A stretch of 64,000 nt of DNA from NCBI GenBank assembly GCA_002720865.1, contig PBIO01000030.1:1-64000 (forward strand). Reading direction: 5' to 3'. Shown here piece by piece: positions 37,441 to 49,195 of the stretch (its first letter is position 1; every line of letters starts with the position of its first letter). The notes beneath the pieces were generated by a model. The model was not told where the DNA came from and searched no databases. It saw only the letters and a program-made list of their open reading frames with translations. A program made the position numbers and the translations under genes. Source of the stretch: Halobacteriovorax sp. (GTDB taxonomy: Bacteria; Bdellovibrionota; Bacteriovoracia; Bacteriovoracales; Bacteriovoracaceae).

Positions 37441-38331
37441 TCAGTACTGTTTCCAGACAATACTTCCAAGACCTCGTCTTAGATCGTTGAGCGCTTTTCT
37501 ATGGTACCAATAGTTCTGTGTCGAGTTGGTCAAAAGGACCCAACCAAGGCTCTTATTGGCGTCAATCCAAATCGATGTACCTGTGAAGCCAGTGTGACCA
37601 AAAGTATTAAGTGAGCACCCAGGTCCTGCCAAAGTTGTATCAGGTGAATCAACCGTATCCCAACCTCTTAGAAAGCGTCCCGACTTTTTTCCCGTATCAA
37701 AAAGCTTTTTAATATGTTCAATAAACCCAGTCTTTCCATCGAGGTTTAAGAGGGTTTGTGAAACTCCCTTTATTGTTCCAAACAATCCGGCATGAGATAA
37801 AAATTCCCCAATGACATAAGCATTATCATCATGGACTTGCCCTCGTATAACTTTCTTTCTTCTAAATCCTGTTTCAGGACAGTGATAATACTCAGGCAAA
37901 TCCTGCCAATGCATTAGCTCATCACTCCATGTTGGTGAACAAAGCTCTCTTAGCTTTTTCCCACTTTTATTTTCAATCTCAATCATTGTTCGAAGTGCCG
38001 AGATATCAGAATACAAATAGGGGCTATCGACGATAGAGAACTTAGTCACGGTTTCCCGCCAACCACTTTGTGAGAATCTACCCCAAGAAGGAAGGCCGGC
38101 CCTATGCTCTAAAAGCAAAATCTCATCTTCACCAAATAGCTCAGGATGTTGATGATAAGTATTGGCCAAGGTTAAAACTTTTGTAAGACTCGCTAAATCA
38201 AACCAAATATCTCCCTGATACCCTCTTTGAGTGGACTCAAAACTACCATCTTTAAAATTAATAACAGAAGCGGCCATATGATCAAATTGGCATGCAGGAA
38301 AAAGTTCATCTATGGCCTGATCTAAAATCAT
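37441..38331 (-). CDS. beta-lactamase-fold serine hydrolase
   Basis: 296 residues with the class C/PBP-like triad of motifs: SLTK in FDLASLTKVL (near residue 48), LYSDIS (YxN-like Tyr, near 105) and GHTGFTGTS (HTG in place of KTG, near 250). It belongs to the serine beta-lactamase/esterase/D-alanyl peptidase group; substrate is not predictable. No signal peptide is seen, so it may act in the cytoplasm, unlike most relatives. Its ATG overlaps the ppdK stop by four bases. The C-terminus ends near the promoter of the lipoprotein gene. Confidence 0.8.
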   Translation of the reverse strand: MILDQAIDELFPACQFDHMAASVINFKDGSFESTQRGYQGDIWFDLASLTKVLTLANTYHQHPELFGEDEILLLEHRAGLPSWGRFSQSGWRETVTKFSIVDSPYLYSDISALRTMIEIENKSGKKLRELCSPTWSDELMHWQDLPEYYHCPETGFRRKKVIRGQVHDDNAYVIGEFLSHAGLFGTIKGVSQTLLNLDGKTGFIEHIKKLFDTGKKSGRFLRGWDTVDSPDTTLAGPGCSLNTFGHTGFTGTSIWIDANKSLGWVLLTNSTQNYWYHRKALNDLRRGLGSIVWKQY

Positions 38332-40991
38332 TTCTCTCCTATACTCGCTTGAGCAGCAGCAAGTCTTGCAACTGGCACCCGGTAAGGAGAACAGCTTACA
38401 TAATCAAGTCCCGCCTTATGACAAAAATGGATCGAAGCAGGGTCTCCTCCATGCTCTCCACAAATTCCTAAGTGAATATCCTTATTAGCTTCTTTTCCTA
38501 ATTTACAGGCATGCTTAACAAGATACCCTACTCCTTTTTGATCAAGAGAGACGAAAGGATCAACTAAGAGGATTCCTTTTGAAACATATTCCCCAAGGAA
38601 TTTTCCTGAGTCATCTCTTGAAAGACCAAAGGTTGTCTGAGTTAGATCATTTGTTCCAAAGCTAAAAAAGTCTGCATGTGGTGCAATCTCATCAGCGGTG
38701 ATGGCAGCTCTTGGAAGTTCAATCATCGTTCCTATTTTGTACTCAATCTTATCTTGTTTTTGATTAAAAATTTCGTTGATTGTTTCAAGAGCTTTTTCTT
38801 TTAACATTGAAAGCTCTAAATCAATTCCTACGAGAGGTATCATAATCTCAGGTTTAACGGGAATACCTTTTTCCTTACAAATAAAAGCCGCTTCAATAAT
38901 GGCCCGAACCTGCATTTGATAAACCTCAGGATAAGTCACTCCAAGACGACATCCTCTATGTCCAAGCATGGGATTAAATTCGTGAAGCCTATCAATTCTT
39001 TCTTCAACTTCTTTTAATTCAATATCTAAGTGTTCCGCCAATTGATCTCTTTCAGAATCTTGGTGAGGCAAGAATTCATGAAGGGGAGGATCAAGCAGTC
39101 TAATATTTGCTGGTTTTCCCTCAAGAGCAGTAAAGATTTCGACAAAATCCTTTCTTTGAAAAGGAAGTAGAGTCTCTAAAGCTTTTTCACGGTTAACTCG
39201 TGTTTCAGCGAAGATCATTTCTCTTACGGCCAAAATCCTTTCTGGATCAAAAAACATATGCTCCGTTCTACATAGTCCAATGCCCTCTGCTCCAAATTTT
39301 AAAGCGACCTTAGCATCTTCAGGATTATCGGCATTTGTCCTAATATCAAGCCTTCTCCTTGAATCAACCCAAGACATAAACTTCGCAAAATTTTCATCAA
39401 TAGAAGCTGCGATAGTTGGAACTAATCCTTCTATGACTTCACCAGTAGCCCCATCGATCGTTAAAAGATCGCCAGCCTTAAAAATTTTACCAGCAACCAT
39501 CATAGTTTCATTATGCGAATCGATCTTGATGTCTGAACATCCGGCTACACAAGGTTTTCCCATACCTCTTGCCACTACCGCAGCGTGAGAAGTCATCCCT
39601 CCCCTTGCTGTTAAAATTCCTTCACTTGCAACCATCCCAGAGATATCTTCTGGGCTTGTTTCTTGCCTAACTAGAATAACTTTTTTTCCATTCTCAGATT
39701 GCATATGAGCAGAGTCGCTATCAAAACAAATCTCTCCTCCAGCAGCACCAGGCGAAGCCGGAAGTCCTTTTGTTAAAACGGTTTTATTATATTCAGGGTC
39801 AAGCCTAGGGTGAAGAAGCTGATTTAGATCTTCCGGAGCTACTCTCATAATAGCTTCTTCTTCACTTAAAATATTTTCTTCAACAAGGTCAACTGCGATT
39901 TTAATAGCAGCGGCCGTTGTTCTTTTTCCATTTCTCGTTTGTAATAAATAGAGCCTATCTTTTTCGATAGTAAATTCTATATCCTGCATATCGCGGTAAT
40001 GAGCTTCTAGCTTTTTATAAACTTCAACAAGTTCATTATATGCGGCCGGCATAACTTCTTCCAAAGTTGAAAGACTGTTATTGGTTTCGTTTTTAGATTC
40101 TGAATTTATTGGATGAGGAGTTCTTATTCCCGCCACCACGTCCTCACCTTGGGCATTAACAAGAAACTCACCGAAGAATCTTTTATCTCCCGTACTAGGA
40201 TCTCTTGTGAAACAAACACCTGTAGCTGAGTCGTCCCCCATATTCCCATACACCATGCTTTGAACATTAACCGCGGTTCCCCATTCATGAGGAATAGCGT
40301 GAAGTTGTCTATAGGTGATGGCGCGGTCATTATTCCAAGATCCAAAAACAGCAGAGATAGCTAACCAAAGCTGCTCCATTGGGTCGTCAGGAAAGGTCTG
40401 TCCACTTTCTTGAGAGATTAAATCTTTATAAACGGTGCAAAGCTGCTTTAAATCATCTGCCGTCAGGTCAGTATCTAGCTCAACTTCTCTAGCTTCTTTT
40501 AAGTCTTCGAGAGTGGACTCAAGCATAGAGAGATTAAAGTTCATTACGACATTGGCATACATTTGAATAAAGCGTCGGTAAGAATCCCAGGCAAAGCGCG
40601 GGTTTTCAGTAAGTTTAGCTAAGCCCTCGACGGTCGTTTCATTTAAACCTAAGTTTAAAACGGTATCCATCATTCCTGGCATAGAGACTCTGGCACCAGA
40701 GCGAACGGAAAAGAGAAGAGGATTGCTAGAGTCCCCAAACCCCTTTCCTGTATTTTTTTCTACTTCTTTAATGGCCGAGATTATCTGCTCTTTCACTTCA
40801 TCAGAAAATTTATTCTGATTTTTTTCATAATCAAGACAAGCTTCAGTAGTGACAGTAAAACCTGGAGGAACCGCGATTCCTAAGGAGGACATTTCGGCCA
40901 AATTAGCCCCCTTTCCTCCTAGAAGATTTTTTAGTTCCCTATTACCTTCTGTCTTTTCCGGACTAAATCCATAAACCCATTTCGTGGTCAT
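38328..40991 (-). CDS. ppdK: pyruvate, phosphate dikinase
   Basis: 887 residues, standard for PPDK. The nucleotide-binding domain starts with LLGGKGANLAEMSSLGIAVP; the phospho-histidine domain has ARGGMTSHAAVVARGMGKPC (catalytic His near residue 455); the PEP-binding barrel has GAEGIGLCRTEHMFF, and the end HLGICGEHGGDPASIHF carries the catalytic Cys. It interconverts pyruvate, ATP and Pi with PEP, AMP and PPi and can feed gluconeogenesis from amino acids. It follows glyS by nine bases and overlaps the hydrolase gene. Confidence 0.97.
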   Translation of the reverse strand: MTTKWVYGFSPEKTEGNRELKNLLGGKGANLAEMSSLGIAVPPGFTVTTEACLDYEKNQNKFSDEVKEQIISAIKEVEKNTGKGFGDSSNPLLFSVRSGARVSMPGMMDTVLNLGLNETTVEGLAKLTENPRFAWDSYRRFIQMYANVVMNFNLSMLESTLEDLKEAREVELDTDLTADDLKQLCTVYKDLISQESGQTFPDDPMEQLWLAISAVFGSWNNDRAITYRQLHAIPHEWGTAVNVQSMVYGNMGDDSATGVCFTRDPSTGDKRFFGEFLVNAQGEDVVAGIRTPHPINSESKNETNNSLSTLEEVMPAAYNELVEVYKKLEAHYRDMQDIEFTIEKDRLYLLQTRNGKRTTAAAIKIAVDLVEENILSEEEAIMRVAPEDLNQLLHPRLDPEYNKTVLTKGLPASPGAAGGEICFDSDSAHMQSENGKKVILVRQETSPEDISGMVASEGILTARGGMTSHAAVVARGMGKPCVAGCSDIKIDSHNETMMVAGKIFKAGDLLTIDGATGEVIEGLVPTIAASIDENFAKFMSWVDSRRRLDIRTNADNPEDAKVALKFGAEGIGLCRTEHMFFDPERILAVREMIFAETRVNREKALETLLPFQRKDFVEIFTALEGKPANIRLLDPPLHEFLPHQDSERDQLAEHLDIELKEVEERIDRLHEFNPMLGHRGCRLGVTYPEVYQMQVRAIIEAAFICKEKGIPVKPEIMIPLVGIDLELSMLKEKALETINEIFNQKQDKIEYKIGTMIELPRAAITADEIAPHADFFSFGTNDLTQTTFGLSRDDSGKFLGEYVSKGILLVDPFVSLDQKGVGYLVKHACKLGKEANKDIHLGICGEHGGDPASIHFCHKAGLDYVSCSPYRVPVARLAAAQASIGEK

Positions 40992-41000
40992 AATTGATCC

Positions 41001-42320
41001 TTAGAATTTAAGTTTGTCGTTAAGATAATTAACAACATTATCTAAAGAAATCCTTTCTTGAGACATTGAATCTCTATCTCTAACCGTCACTGCTTGATCC
41101 TCAAGAGTGTCAAAGTCAACTGTTAAACAAAATGGCGTTCCAATCTCGTCTTGCCTGCGATAGCGCTTACCAATCGAACCAGCTAAATCATATTCAGCTC
41201 TATAATGTTTTTGAACTTCGGCGAATAGTTTTTTGGCAGGCTCTTCTAGTTTTTTCATTAGCGGAAGAACAGCTACTTTTATTGGTGCAAGTTTTGGATC
41301 AAACTTTAAAACAGTTCTCTCTTTTTCTTTATCACCCTCGAATTCTAGACGATAAGCATCTGACATAAGAGCGAGCAAGCAGCGGTCACAGCCCACTGAA
41401 GTTTCAACTACGTAAGGAATATATTTTTTATTATTATCCTGTGTATCTAAATACTCTAGTTTCTTTCCTGAAAATTCCTGATGCTGTTTTAAATCAAAAT
41501 CAGTTCTTGAGTGAATACCTTCCATTTCATCAAAACCATGGGGAAATTCGTATTCAATATCGGTAGCCGCATCAGCATAATGTGCTAATTCATTACCTTC
41601 GTGGGCATGCCAACGAAGCTTTCCAGGTCTTAGACCATTTTCTAGGTGCCAGTTCCAACGAATCTCTTTCCATTGCTCCATGGCCTCTTTTTGAGTTCCA
41701 GGCTTTAGAAAGTATTGCATTTCCATTTGCTCAAATTCGCGAGTTCTAAAAATAAAGTTCCCTGGAGAAATTTCATTTCTAAATGCCTTTCCAATTTGAG
41801 CTATCCCAAAGGGAAGTTTTTTTCTCATGGTTGTTTGAACATTTAAGAAGTTTACAAAAATACCCTGAGCAGTTTCCGGTCTTAGATAAACTTTCGAGTT
41901 ATCATCTTCCACGGGACCCATCTGAGTATTAAACATGAGGTTAAAGTCTCGGGCCTCTGTAAAAGAATCCTTAGCCCCACATTTTTGACATGGCTGACTT
42001 GGATCAATCTTATCTTCTCGATATCTCTCTTTACAGTTTTTACAATCAATCATGGGATCATTAAATCCATCCACATGTCCTGAAGCTTTCCAAACAGTTG
42101 GGTGCATAAAAATAGAAGCATCAACACCGACCACATCATCTCTAAAAGTCATGGCCTTCCACCATCTTTCTTTTAGATTATTTTTAAGCTCAACTCCAAG
42201 AGGTCCGTAATCCCAACAAGATTGCAGGCCTCCATAAACTTCTGAACTTTGAAAAATAAAACCTCGTCTTTTACTTAGACTAACGAGATCCGACATGGAC
42301 TTGAGATTAGATTCTGACAC
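41001..42320 (-). CDS. glyS: glycyl-tRNA synthetase (alpha2, GlyQS type)
   Basis: 439 residues, class II. Start is GTG 42320 with AGGAG seven bases upstream. Key motifs: [26 protein letters not shown], a zinc ribbon (CKNCKERY and CQKCG, about 85-120), motif 2 [15 protein letters not shown] and motif 3 [14 protein letters not shown]. The C-terminal anticodon-binding domain has [15 protein letters not shown]. It charges tRNA-Gly; it is the dimeric eukaryote/archaeal-like form and not the GlyQ-GlyS tetramer. A stable hairpin stands in its leader. Confidence 0.97.
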
Positions 42321-42422: not shown

Positions 42423-44138
42423 CTATGCTTTCTGAGAGAGTTCGTAAAGTTTGGCGTACTCACCATTCTTGTTCATTAGCTCGTGATGAGGACCTGACTC
42501 AATGAGCGATCCTTCCTTAAGTACGTAGATACAATCGTAATCTTGAACAGTTGAAAGCCTATGGGCCACAGCAACTACAGTTTTCCCGCCAGCCGCATTC
42601 TCTAAGGCCTTTTGAACTACCTTTTCTGACTCATTGTCCAAAGCAGAAGTGGCCTCGTCAAAGAGCATTATATCTTTATTTTGAAGGAAGGCCCTGGCTA
42701 TTGTGATCCTCTGCTGCTGTCCACCTGAGAGCCTTGTCCCGCGGTCACCAACAATGGTTTCGAGACCCTCTGGAAGTTCGTGAACGAATTCATCTGCATA
42801 AGAAACTTTTAACGCTTCTTTAATCTCTTTCTCGGAGTAATCCCCCCCAATGGTTAGGTTATTTCGGATTGTATCGTTAAATAAAAATACATCTTGAGAT
42901 ACAAGGGCCGTCAACCCGCGCATGGATTCTAATTCATAATCATTAATATCTTTTCCATCAATAAATATACTTCCAGGTGAAACTGGGTAAAGTCCGAGGA
43001 GTAAATTAATAAGAGTTGATTTTCCTGAGCCTGAAAGTCCCACCAAAGCGACCTTTTTCCCTTTAGGTATTTCTAAACTTAGGTTATCGATGACCTTTCC
43101 GTCACCGTAATCAAAACTAAGGTTTTTAACTTCGAGCCCATTAGCTAAATGAGAGACCTTATGACCTCCACCAAAGTTTTCTTCTGGTAATTCAAGTAAT
43201 TCAAAAATCCTATCTCCAGCCGCCTGTCCTTGGGAAAGCCTCACATTAGCCTGAGAGAATTTTCTTATGGGATCCATAAAAAGAGCCAGTGCCGCGACAA
43301 ATGAGACAAATTCACCAATGGTAGTTGCACCTGATTGAATTCGATGGTGAGCAAATACGATGACACAACTAAAGGCAATCGTTCCGACAATTTCCACAAA
43401 AGGATGGGCCATTTCTTCCACAAATGTGGTTCTCATTTGAGCATTAAAAAATAGCTTTTGAGCTTTTTCAAATCTCTCACTTACAAAATTTTGCAGATTA
43501 AAAGCTTTAGTAAGCTTCTGAGCCGCGATTCCTTCTGCCGTATTATGAGTTAATTCTCCGTGCTCTTTTTGGACATCTGACTGATTATTTTTTACCTTCT
43601 TCCCACTGATCGAAAAAATCAAAATAAGAAAAGGCGCGATGATAAAAATAACCAGAGTCAATTGCCAATCGGCCCAAAAGGCCATTCCTAAATAAACAGC
43701 ACCTTTTAATGGTTCACGAATAAGGTCAACGATGGCCCTAAAGCCCGTTGAGAAAACCTGGGTATCGTTAACAACATTTGAAATTAGCTGTCCCTGCCTC
43801 GCCTTAGTAAAAAAACTAACGGGAAGCCTCTGTAGTTTTTTAAAAATATCGTACCGAACACTGCATGTGGCGTTGTCGACGATATAACGGATCCAGTAAA
43901 AGTGAAGAAAGCGGCAAGGAAAATGAAGTAGACCAAGACCTAGCAATTTACCGGCTAGGATATAAACTTCCCTATCTGTAGCTCCAGCGCTAAGGCCGTG
44001 ATCAAAGATGGGCTTAACTAAACTAACTTGAAGCCCACCAATTGCTGCAAGAGCAAAAGAAAAAAGAATGGTAATTATAACCTTTCCTTTATGGGGCTTA
44101 ATATAGGGCATTAACCGTTGGTTAAGAAATGCTAGCAT
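42423..44138 (-). CDS. msbA: MsbA-like ABC exporter (lipid A / LPS flippase)
   Basis: 571 residues: six membrane helices in the first 310 residues and an ABC domain with Walker A GLSGSGKS (near 370), Q-loop LVSQDVFLF, signature LSGGQQQR, and Walker B MLFDEATSALDNES. The half-transporter layout and length are those of MsbA. It flips lipid A-core across the inner membrane. The motif LQRLPVSFFTKARQGQLISN matches MsbA coupling helices. It lies 12 bases downstream of nothing but upstream of glyS (102-base gap) and follows recO by 12 bases. Other lipid exporters of the same family cannot be excluded. Confidence 0.88.
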   Translation of the reverse strand: MLAFLNQRLMPYIKPHKGKVIITILFSFALAAIGGLQVSLVKPIFDHGLSAGATDREVYILAGKLLGLGLLHFPCRFLHFYWIRYIVDNATCSVRYDIFKKLQRLPVSFFTKARQGQLISNVVNDTQVFSTGFRAIVDLIREPLKGAVYLGMAFWADWQLTLVIFIIAPFLILIFSISGKKVKNNQSDVQKEHGELTHNTAEGIAAQKLTKAFNLQNFVSERFEKAQKLFFNAQMRTTFVEEMAHPFVEIVGTIAFSCVIVFAHHRIQSGATTIGEFVSFVAALALFMDPIRKFSQANVRLSQGQAAGDRIFELLELPEENFGGGHKVSHLANGLEVKNLSFDYGDGKVIDNLSLEIPKGKKVALVGLSGSGKSTLINLLLGLYPVSPGSIFIDGKDINDYELESMRGLTALVSQDVFLFNDTIRNNLTIGGDYSEKEIKEALKVSYADEFVHELPEGLETIVGDRGTRLSGGQQQRITIARAFLQNKDIMLFDEATSALDNESEKVVQKALENAAGGKTVVAVAHRLSTVQDYDCIYVLKEGSLIESGPHHELMNKNGEYAKLYELSQKA

Positions 44139-44150
44139 TGAATGATAATA

Positions 44151-44939
44151 TCAAAGTTGAAAAACCATAGAAAGGGATTTGAAGCTTCCTTGATTCATTT
44201 GAAATTGATAGAAAAAATAGTCCATTAACTGCCTTGAAACGCCTTTATTCTCAATTTTAAGGGGAACGAGCTCCGGGTATTTCTCCGATCCAATCGGTCC
44301 AAGCACATACCAAAGCTCTCGGGTCATGGCAGAATCTCCTCTTGCAGGGCTACAATTTAGACAAGTAAAGCCCCCGTGCTCAAGGTTTAATAGACTAATA
44401 TTCTGGGCCGTTAGCTCCAGGTCACAAAGACAGCAATTTTCTCTTTGAGGAAAAACTCCCTGTTCTCCTAAAAGCTTTCCCAAAAAGACCGTAAGCTCTT
44501 TATGCATATTAAAATTTCCAGAATCGACTGCCTTCTCAATATAAAAAAGGGCATTACTTACAACCCTAAAAATTCCTTCATGCTCATCTGTTAAATCTTT
44601 TTGATGAAGATCTTCTTCACCGACAATCTTTCCTGCTATTTCACAAATCAAGCATACCGCGGTGAAAGCTCGGTGATCTGTTCGAATTTTTTCTGCTCGC
44701 CAGATAGGTTTCCACTCTTTAGCTCGATAAACTTCTGAGCTTGACTTAGAAACAGAAAGTTCGATTTCTAACATGGACCCCAGATCGAGCTGGGAAGGTT
44801 TTTTCTTTTTTCCTCCACCTTGGCCACCATAAAAAAGCACTGAAACCTTTTTTCCAGTTCTTAAGAGAAGCGAGCAAATAAGATGCCTTTCTTGAAAGTC
44901 GGTTTTATTTAGAAGGAGACCCTCTATCTTAGTACGCAT
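44151..44939 (-). CDS. recO: DNA repair protein RecO
   Basis: 262 residues, RecO-like: an N-terminal OB fold (KIEGLLLNKTDFQERHLICS and KVSVLFYGGQGGGKKKKPSQ, the latter being the family RR/GG region) followed by a helical domain and a C4 zinc site (CCLCDLEL at about 170 and FTCLNCSPARG at about 195). RecO anneals single strands and loads RecA with RecR in the RecFOR pathway. The unusual QGGGKKKK loop is more basic than in most. It lies three bases after an SF2 helicase gene on the same strand. Confidence 0.85.
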   Translation of the reverse strand: MRTKIEGLLLNKTDFQERHLICSLLLRTGKKVSVLFYGGQGGGKKKKPSQLDLGSMLEIELSVSKSSSEVYRAKEWKPIWRAEKIRTDHRAFTAVCLICEIAGKIVGEEDLHQKDLTDEHEGIFRVVSNALFYIEKAVDSGNFNMHKELTVFLGKLLGEQGVFPQRENCCLCDLELTAQNISLLNLEHGGFTCLNCSPARGDSAMTRELWYVLGPIGSEKYPELVPLKIENKGVSRQLMDYFFYQFQMNQGSFKSLSMVFQL

Positions 44940-44942
44940 GCC

Positions 44943-45887
44943 CTAAGCATAAAAGAGCTGAAGGTATCGGTCAAAGAGCTTGGTTTTTAACTTATTCCAA
45001 AGACTTGCCTTCTCTTTTCGATGGGAGAAAAGCTCAAATCCTCCTCCCTTTCTTCCACCTCTGGCCATCATTTGTAAAAACAGATCCCAATCCTTCACGT
45101 CATAGGTTATAAAAACTTTTTTTATATCTCCTAGGTTAACTCCGTGACTTAAAGTTGAAGTGCAGACAATAACAGAAGGAAAGCCACCAAGCCTACAGTC
45201 GTCCATAAACTTTAGACTCTCACCACCGACACAGGTCTTAACAATTAGTCCCAGACCTTCAATCTTTTGGCTAATCCTTTTAACTTCTTCACGGTACTGA
45301 CAAAACACAATACAGTTCTCCCCCTTTTCAAGTTCATAAATCATTCGCCTTAAAAAGAGACTCCGTTGCAAGCCATAGAAACTGATTTCTACGGAAGGAG
45401 GATTTTGAGTCATTCCGTTTCCAAAATCTAGTATTTGAAAGTCATATCCACCTTGTTTAAAAAGACTTTCCCATTCAATCTCGTATTCATCTCGAAGCGT
45501 GGCACTTAAAGCTAAAATCGGATAACCATCATTAGCAATCTGATAAAAGCACTCCCAAAGTCTATGGCGAAACCTATTTCCCCAAAAATTCCAAAGGTGT
45601 ATTTCATCGAAGATAACGAGGAGATTTTGTCGCTCTTTTTTTGATAGAGTATCTAAGAATTTATTAACTCTCTCTGCAGTCAAGGACTTAAAGAAATACT
45701 CTTCTTTTTCAAAGAATAACGCTTTTTCTTCAACCTCCTTTTCTAGTGCTTTTAGAGGGGAGATGAAGAGAATATTTAGTTTATTTCTTTGAAAAAGCTC
45801 AAAGATAAGAGTCGTTTTGCCCCATCCAGCCGGAGCTAACAAAAAAATGGCCCTATATTTTTGAAGCTTTTCCACAATCCTTGGCAT
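44943..45887 (-). CDS. compact superfamily 2 helicase-like protein
   Basis: 314 residues with a full helicase core in a very short frame: motif I LLAPAGWGKTT (about 16-26), Ia LFISPLKALE, II VIFDEIHLW (DEIH), III ILALSATLRD, IV NCIVFCQYREEV, V VIVCTSTLSHGVNLGDIK, and VI-like LFLQMMARGGRKGG. No accessory domain is present, and the N-terminus begins directly at motif I (no Q motif). It probably unwinds or remodels nucleic acid. It starts three bases before recO, suggesting joint expression in repair, but this pairing is not a standard one I know. Confidence 0.8.
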   Translation of the reverse strand: MPRIVEKLQKYRAIFLLAPAGWGKTTLIFELFQRNKLNILFISPLKALEKEVEEKALFFEKEEYFFKSLTAERVNKFLDTLSKKERQNLLVIFDEIHLWNFWGNRFRHRLWECFYQIANDGYPILALSATLRDEYEIEWESLFKQGGYDFQILDFGNGMTQNPPSVEISFYGLQRSLFLRRMIYELEKGENCIVFCQYREEVKRISQKIEGLGLIVKTCVGGESLKFMDDCRLGGFPSVIVCTSTLSHGVNLGDIKKVFITYDVKDWDLFLQMMARGGRKGGGFELFSHRKEKASLWNKLKTKLFDRYLQLFYA

Positions 45888-45941: not shown

Positions 45942-46649
45942 TTGAACAACTTACTTTTATTTGAGCACGAAATTCAATCTGAGAATCAATATTTGATTGA
46001 ATCTCCTGAAAGAGTTCAGCATATTATTCAGGTCTTGGGAAAAAGGGTTGGAGATGAGCTAAATATTTGTGAAGTTAATAAATCTTTAGGAACAGCTCGA
46101 ATTGATAAACTTACGGAGAACTCTGTAGAGCTTTTAGTCCAAAGACGTGAAAAGGGAGTCTCATTCGATATTAAACTTTTTGTCGCAATATCTAGACCCC
46201 CTACAATGAAAAAGATTTTGGAGCATGGCACTTCACTAGGCGTAAGTGAGTTTCATTTCTATAGACCTGAGCTCACTGAGAAAAGTTATCTCGACGCAAA
46301 ATTATTTAAGGAAAAGCTTTTTACTTCCCAAATTGAACTTGGTCTCTCTCAGTCAAAGGTTTTCTGGAAACTACCAAAAGTCATTCTTCATCAAGAACTT
46401 CCAAAGTTTGATGATATTGAACTTGGTCAAAAGTATCTTCTAAAGATGCAGGCAAAGAAAAAGTTTAGCGATTTTCCACCGGACTTAAAAAAACCGATTA
46501 GCCTAGTTATTGGACCAGAGAGAGGACTTATTCCCTCTGAAAATCTTTTCTTTGAAGAATCAGGCTTTACTCCAATTGAGGTATCCCCATCCACCTTAAG
46601 AGTTGAAATTGCCACCTTCGCAGCATTATCTCAACTCTTCTTATTTTAA
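45942..46649 (+). CDS. rsmE: RsmE, 16S rRNA m3U1498 methyltransferase
   Basis: 235 residues from TTG 45942; AGGTAG lies six bases upstream and no ATG start is possible (in-frame stops). The SPOUT fold shows HIIQVLGKRVGDELNICEV at the N-terminal PUA-like part and IGPERGL, EVSPSTLRVEIATFAALSQL at the knotted SAM site; these are diagnostic of RsmE. The enzyme methylates U1498 in 16S rRNA of the 30S subunit. It is divergent from the helicase gene with only 54 bases between. Confidence 0.93.
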   Translation: MNNLLLFEHEIQSENQYLIESPERVQHIIQVLGKRVGDELNICEVNKSLGTARIDKLTENSVELLVQRREKGVSFDIKLFVAISRPPTMKKILEHGTSLGVSEFHFYRPELTEKSYLDAKLFKEKLFTSQIELGLSQSKVFWKLPKVILHQELPKFDDIELGQKYLLKMQAKKKFSDFPPDLKKPISLVIGPERGLIPSENLFFEESGFTPIEVSPSTLRVEIATFAALSQLFLF

Positions 46650-48798: not shown

Positions 48799-48874
48799 AA
48801 CTTTTCAAAATCATGACAATCTTTAAAATTCACTTTGCTAATATATTTACAAATTAACCAATAAGGAGAAATTG

Positions 48875-49195
48875 ATGAAAAAGAAGAATTTATTATTAAG
48901 TGCCGCTGTAACAGGCCTAGTATTAGGTGCAAACGTAGACACGGCCATGGCCTCAGGGGGAGCGAATAAAGAGAAATGCAAAGGCGTTGCTGCAAAAGGA
49001 GCTAACTCTTGCGGAGCAAACGGTCACGGATGCGGTGGTTTTGCCAAAACAGATTTTGATAAGAATGAATGGGTTTATGTTAAAAAGGGAACCTGTAAAA
49101 AAGTTCAAGCCGCTCTAAAAGATAAAGATGTAATGGAGTTTATTAAAAACACAACAAATAACGCTAGAAAATATAAAGATAATTTTAAGGGTTAA
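48875..49195 (+). CDS. bufferin-like small exported protein (BufA1/DUF2282)
   Basis: 106 residues from ATG 48875 (AAGGAG six bases upstream). A signal peptide (NLLLSAAVTGLVLGANVDTA, cleavage after AMA at residue 26) precedes four cysteines, C35, C46, C53 and C74, in the order EKCKGVAAKGANSCG, HGCGG and WVYVKKGTCKK. This matches the DUF2282/BufA1 pattern (EKCyGVakaGkndC..HsCaG..VPkGTC). BufA proteins are precursors modified by MNIO enzymes (BufB, DUF692) with BufC, and bind copper. No bufB or bufC is in the window. A C-terminal helix of about 30 residues follows the core. A promoter is not clear. Confidence 0.75.
   Translation: MKKKNLLLSAAVTGLVLGANVDTAMASGGANKEKCKGVAAKGANSCGANGHGCGGFAKTDFDKNEWVYVKKGTCKKVQAALKDKDVMEFIKNTTNNARKYKDNFKG

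Follow-up and report, generated by a model that had tools for sequence, protein, structure and literature searches.

The RecO-helicase pair of the window

Is the small helicase that is encoded directly in front of recO in a Halobacteriovorax sp. contig a dedicated partner of RecO, or only its neighbour? The window analysed here, a stretch of 64,000 nucleotides (GenBank assembly GCA_002720865.1, contig PBIO01000030.1, positions 1 to 64,000), carries on its minus strand a minimal RecQ-like superfamily 2 (SF2) helicase of 314 aa (44943..45887, ATG start) followed by recO (262 aa, 44151..44939, ATG start). Both genes were taken from the list of open reading frames (ORFs) and from Pfam and NCBIfam searches, and the helicase also from an AlphaFold model. 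An earlier reading of the letters alone (the sequence-only reading) had placed three bases between the two genes. This is correct: the junction reads TAG GGC ATG, from the helicase stop to the recO start, and both genes lie in one frame. The explanation that we favour, tentatively, is that the upstream gene encodes an order-specific, stripped-down RecQ-type helicase that would act as a dedicated partner of RecO, likely at gaps coated by single-strand binding protein (SSB). The fold itself is a known one; what our searches did not turn up is the stripped form, the order-wide bond with recO and an apparent decay series.

Conservation of the pair in the order

We searched 368 genomes of the phylum, 129 of them in the order (all under one family label), with a profile built from 28 helicase members (A1). 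The family was found in 105 of the 129 order genomes, a count that results from 107 matches at E<=1e-30 after two RecQ ORFs (G099, G110) were subtracted. Among the other phylum genomes, about 239 of which were searched with this profile, there was no member; six matches outside the order (7e-35 to 6e-31) come from ORFs of RecQ type that read DEAHC or DECHC. A first scan of genome contigs with the window protein alone gave no match. Of 59 genomes searched with a single sequence, 38 had a match at E<=0.001, RecQ-type matches included. In the loci from this search, tblastn and inspection of the ORFs showed recO directly after the small helicase in nearly all genomes of the same family, the exceptions being two loci with no recO within 1.5 kb (L008, L025) and one with an insert (L013).

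The arrangement was also scored in named contigs. The scan there relied on 80 stretches and a single peptide pattern, that of motif V, so it misses members whose motif V differs, and taxa missing from it are not thereby excluded. The scan returned 78 loci; most bear the titles Bacteriovorax, Halobacteriovorax, Bacteriovoracaceae or Bdellovibrionales, while some carry broader proteobacterial ones. The recO gene is adjacent to or overlaps the helicase in 63 of these loci (62 scored by script, and L107). In another 11 the two genes are separated by an insert of 167-1415 nt. The remaining four do not have recO directly downstream: it lies about 2.8 kb upstream (L057) or on other contigs or outside the locus (L070, L081, L089). 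The two genes overlap in 42 of the 62 scored pairs, by the start codons that the script chose. Because the linkage recurs across the order, it goes beyond chance, and conservation in relatives, on which the sequence-only reading had staked its proposal of a repair pair, is established. No natural fusion was seen, in that no stop-to-stop ORF in 139 loci matched both profiles. In the closest named relative, a Halobacteriovorax metagenome-assembled genome (L032), the helicase is 75% and RecO 95% identical to the window proteins. Relative to this genome the helicase evolves much faster than RecO, with nonsynonymous divergence (dN) of 0.16 vs 0.03. In literature searches covering titles and the beginnings of abstracts we found neither the RecO-helicase pair of this order nor the stripped helicase form with its apparent decay series, and the searches returned no experiment on this protein.

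Differing small genes sit exactly between helicase and recO in nine loci of Bacteriovorax relatives (L044, L045, L047, L052, L055, L066, L067, L069 and L103). By eye these resemble toxin-antitoxin-type pairs, helix-turn-helix proteins, an ATPase and an exported protein. In L092 the gap is 167 nt long and holds no ORF of 50 codons.

A minimal helicase core nearest to RecQ

The helicase matches Pfam Helicase_C (39.3 bits) and DEAD (38.8 bits), each above cut-off, and SF2 motifs I, Ia, II, III, IV, V and VI are all readable. Motif I, or Walker A (APAGWGKT, residues 18-25), lies at 45813..45836, and motif II (DEIH) with the following RecQ-type aromatic-rich loop (residues 94-107) at 45567..45608, both on the minus strand with coordinates derived by hand from the ORF. 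The AlphaFold model of the 314 residues (74 alignment rows; mean predicted local distance difference test, pLDDT, 94.4; predicted template modelling score, pTM, 0.89) consists of two RecA-like lobes and one terminal helix, with no further domain. The RQC (zinc, winged helix) and HRDC domains are absent, as the model ends at the second lobe and Pfam shows no such domain. The open frame of 320 codons extends only six beyond the 314-aa ORF, so no N-terminal domain has been overlooked. The description in the sequence-only reading of a core of about 314 residues with all motifs and no accessory domain therefore holds.

By sequence, the family is closest to RecQ DNA helicases and not to RNA helicases. 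The top NCBIfam model is recQ_fam TIGR00614 (25.6 bits, far under its cut-off of 219.8), and with 20.8 bits against TIGR01389 (cut-off 640.2) the curated RecQ cut-off is not reached. The best single-cassette matches in profile searches of the PDB are BLM (1.8e-27), E. coli RecQ (3.7e-25) and WRN; Slh1, ASCC3 and Brr2 have higher total scores, which come from summing two cassettes. The RecQ aromatic-rich loop residues W102, F106 and R107 are shared without change by all 74 helicases and all 18 RecQ-type proteins compared, and PMC4446433 reports the loop arginine to be needed. All 74 helicases keep the Walker lysine, DExH and the arginines of motif VI; the Walker threonine is kept in all but L081 (73 of 74). 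DEAD-box hallmarks are lacking, since all 74 read DExH and leave no space upstream for a Q motif. Nor was motif 0 (FRxxQ) found before motif I: only 6-28 residues lie ahead of the AP of motif I in these helicases, and the window helicase begins downstream of the motif-0 alignment columns. In a 40-row tree the helicases form one clade (100/99), separate from full and short RecQs, with a root that is unsure because the DEAD-box branch is very long.

Fold comparison was less discriminating. Foldseek ranked BLM and RecQ on top with DEAD-box proteins close behind, and the VIA fold comparison ended in a tie (DbpA 23.1, BLM 23.0, RecQ 22.4), so that the predicted fold alone cannot separate RecQ from DEAD-box RNA helicases. 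The sequence-only reading had regarded a tie of the helicase family to RNA work as telling against its proposal. The PDB profile search and the invariant loop place the family on the RecQ side, whereas the fold stays undecided between RecQ and DEAD-box.

With the RecQ family (E. coli RecQ, BLM, WRN) the window helicase has in common the two RecA-like lobes and the W..FR aromatic-rich loop after motif II, but it is without motif 0, RQC and HRDC, falls into its own clade, and reads HGVN where RecQ motif V reads GMGID. Its motif Ia (PLxALxxE) and motif V (GVNLP) resemble those of the Ski2-like/Hel308 proteins Slh1, ASCC3, Brr2 and Hel308, from which it differs in being a single short core without ratchet or winged-helix domains. 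A further comparison, by description of function, is with E. coli RadD, which is not known to be linked to recO. RadD is likewise an SF2 protein of recombinational repair and is described in PMC10238739 as binding SSB.

Short RecQ-type proteins of 368-394 aa, with motif 0 present, occur in other Bdellovibrionota (L154:6479-7585, L155:6656-7840, L156:6701-7876), and those of L155 and L156 have C-terminal cysteines as in a zinc site. Their genes do not adjoin recO at these loci; the neighbours look like genes of lipid or sugar biosynthesis.

ORFs before recO in genomes without the helicase

The helicase is lacking in 24 of the 129 order genomes. In six of these (G028, G099, G100, G114, G115, G150) recO was not found either, which is likely to reflect assembly gaps in part, because four of them are <90% complete. 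Among the 18 with a located recO, 17 have an ORF of 185-314 aa in the slot before it, and G020 has none. A motif scan found a complete Walker A, DExH or HGVN in none of the 17 slot ORFs; isolated strings are GKT/GKS in G082 and G102, RGGR in G087 and SAT in G140. A Pfam search of ten of the 17 gave nothing above any cut-off.

Four of the 17 slot ORFs (G110, G103, G026, G032) align with the helicase above background and are recognisable as worn-down helicases. The clearest remnant is that of G110, a 272-aa ORF whose alignment covers residues 1-272 (score 32.8, P 3.7e-4) and includes a stretch like motif IV and a C-terminus matching the helicase; a score this high was reached by one of 273 background ORFs. 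Both congeners of G110 (G034, G111) keep an intact helicase. The ORFs of G103, G026 and G032 score 27.5-29.8, values reached by two of the 273 background ORFs. A profile of three remnant rows (A6) matched the helicases at 54% (E 1.3e-4), with one row that aligns poorly.

A group of seven genomes (g60), which stands beside the genus of the window in a quick RecO tree (support 92), has slot ORFs that are conserved among themselves, with pairwise E down to 3e-55. The profile of these remnants (A5) matched the helicases at a probability of 1.4%, which does not prove their descent from the helicase. Matches of A5 to many recO starts were rejected as homologues, being out-of-frame readings of recO in the overlap. 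In the close pair G084/G083, dN of the slot ORF is 0.26 and synonymous divergence (dS) 1.12, compared with 0.06 and 1.87 for recO of the same pair. The excess of dS indicates that this slot ORF is under selection at the protein level, weaker than that on recO. Codon-position identities (0.72/0.84/0.55) agree with these values, but the shuffled controls lie close to what was observed once the pairs are more distant. Mapping the remnant label on the RecO tree requires ten changes, only two of which are forced by well-supported branches. We infer that most of the slot ORFs descended from the helicase.

A possible partnership and its mechanism

A physical complex of helicase and RecO is hinted at by modelling. 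The read-through helicase-RecO chain gave an AlphaFold model with pLDDT 93.7 and pTM 0.75, and since two unplaced domains would give a pTM of 0.5-0.6 by a rough estimate, a preferred placement of the two proteins may be indicated. Several observations weigh against a dedicated partnership. The pTM of 0.75 stands without a control, only nine of the 86 alignment rows span both proteins, and the 2-residue linker may help. Coupling of tree distances was not specific for RecO: the partial correlations given glyS were 0.46 for helicase-recO (n=44), 0.10 for helicase-ABC (n=44) and 0.82 for helicase-rsmE (n=20). As descendants of the helicase, 13 of the 17 slot ORFs (including those of G083 and G140) score no higher than background. 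Finally, recO persists without the helicase, and the helicase persists where recO has moved, which means that neither strictly needs the linkage. The helicase is intact though recO lies elsewhere in G012, G027, G075 and G104, and the helicase of G101 has GKG in its Walker A.

If the helicase is a RecO partner, it would be made in step with RecO from the abutting or overlapping genes and would work at SSB-coated single-strand gaps, as a motor or clamp on single-stranded DNA dedicated to RecO. Motif Ia and the RecQ-type aromatic-rich loop may provide its contact with this DNA, and ATP would power the clearing or extension of the gap as RecO and RecR load RecA. The contact with RecO, the action at gaps and the polarity are what we infer, the first two by analogy with the protein families; a role in gap repair is plausible. 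In some lineages the ATPase would have been lost and a remnant retained beside recO. Such retention suggests that a non-motor role, either DNA binding or the holding of RecO, is more conserved than the motor, and the best reading is that the motor is sometimes dispensable. Should the remnants truly descend from the helicase, the fact that the ORF outlived its ATPase argues for a structural role in addition to that of the motor. A bolder proposal is that RecO here is a two-subunit mediator with a RecQ-derived partner, and that several lineages lost the ATPase and kept a fast-evolving pseudo-helicase still serving RecO, a repeated change from motor to scaffold; we consider this rather unlikely. 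If confirmed, the series would serve as an experiment of nature on what RecO requires of a helicase, and the 314-residue RecQ-like core could be used for biochemistry.

Alternative explanations

A somewhat less likely explanation is that neighbourhood is all that the two genes share, and that the helicase is an independent repair motor of RecQ- or RadD-like type, whose co-expression with recO serves joint repair with no direct partnership. The four genomes that keep an intact helicase with recO elsewhere fit this view, as do the tree-distance test and the position of rsmE, likewise a frequent neighbour (28 of 68 loci). However, the linkage is kept across a very divergent order, overlap is seen in the 42 pairs described above, and remnants remain in the same slot. 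A translational role, with the upstream frame serving chiefly as a leader that delivers ribosomes to recO, strikes us as improbable. Ribosome delivery would let frames persist while the sequence decays, and indeed the frames overlap or abut recO and the remnants hold frame while the motifs disappear. On the other hand, the catalytic residues are retained in 73-74 of the 74 helicases, dN is well below dS in the remnant pair G084/G083, and recO does without such an upstream ORF in G020, G027 and G104 (in the latter two, none lies upstream in the direction of recO). Persistence of an intact helicase after recO moved likewise implies that it is not only a leader for recO.

An RNA helicase acting with rRNA or in translation is suggested by the divergent rsmE neighbour, of the rRNA methyltransferase type, and by a fold equally near DEAD-box RNA helicases. 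We hold this to be very improbable, as the single-cassette profile puts BLM, RecQ and WRN ahead of DEAD-box chains, the RecQ loop is invariant, and the protein has neither DEAD box, upstream Q segment nor an added RNA-binding domain. The sequence-only reading had proposed that the helicase replaces RecQ and RecJ in gap repair. For the source genome this is rejected: full-length RecQ (727.8 bits), RecJ (490.5), RecF (246) and RecR (202.5) are all present above cut-off. Across the order RecQ was found in 83 of 126 genomes and not in 43, and many of those listed among the 43 have the helicase, which speaks for a replacement. Yet RecJ was found in 119 of the 126, and helicase and RecQ occur together widely, and we see next to no chance that replacement is the explanation. 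RecF was found in 124 of the 126 (112 above cut-off) and RecR in 113, including 73 of 73 good-quality genomes. The canonical RecFOR set of RecO, RecR, RecF, RecJ and RecQ is in the source genome. RecFOR gap repair is described in PMC1193525 as requiring no specific helicase, whereas here a helicase is linked to recO order-wide.

Gene neighbourhood

The source genome (4.9 Mb, 33 contigs) has one helicase-family member and one RecO match. The window RecO appears divergent yet recognisable in sequence: RecO_C of Pfam is matched at 26.5 bits (cut-off 22.1), RecO_N at 20.4 bits (below the cut-off of 27), and NCBIfam TIGR00613 at 46.9 bits (E 2.3e-12), slightly below the curated cut-off of 48.7. A PDB search with a RecO profile (A3) yielded no solved RecO structure at E 0.01.

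Downstream of recO and in the same direction lies an ABC exporter gene (42423..44138, minus strand; ORF list and Pfam). It is followed by a glycyl-tRNA synthetase-like gene (41001..42320) and a pyruvate phosphate dikinase-like gene (38328..40991), both on the minus strand and in the direction of recO. Divergent from the helicase is the gene of an RsmE-type RNA methyltransferase (45942..46649, plus strand; Pfam Methyltrans_RNA, 84 bits). Farther off, positions 48872-49195 of the window encode a small exported-looking protein with cysteine motifs (CGANGHGCGGFAKTDF), which may resemble metal-binding bufferin-type peptides.
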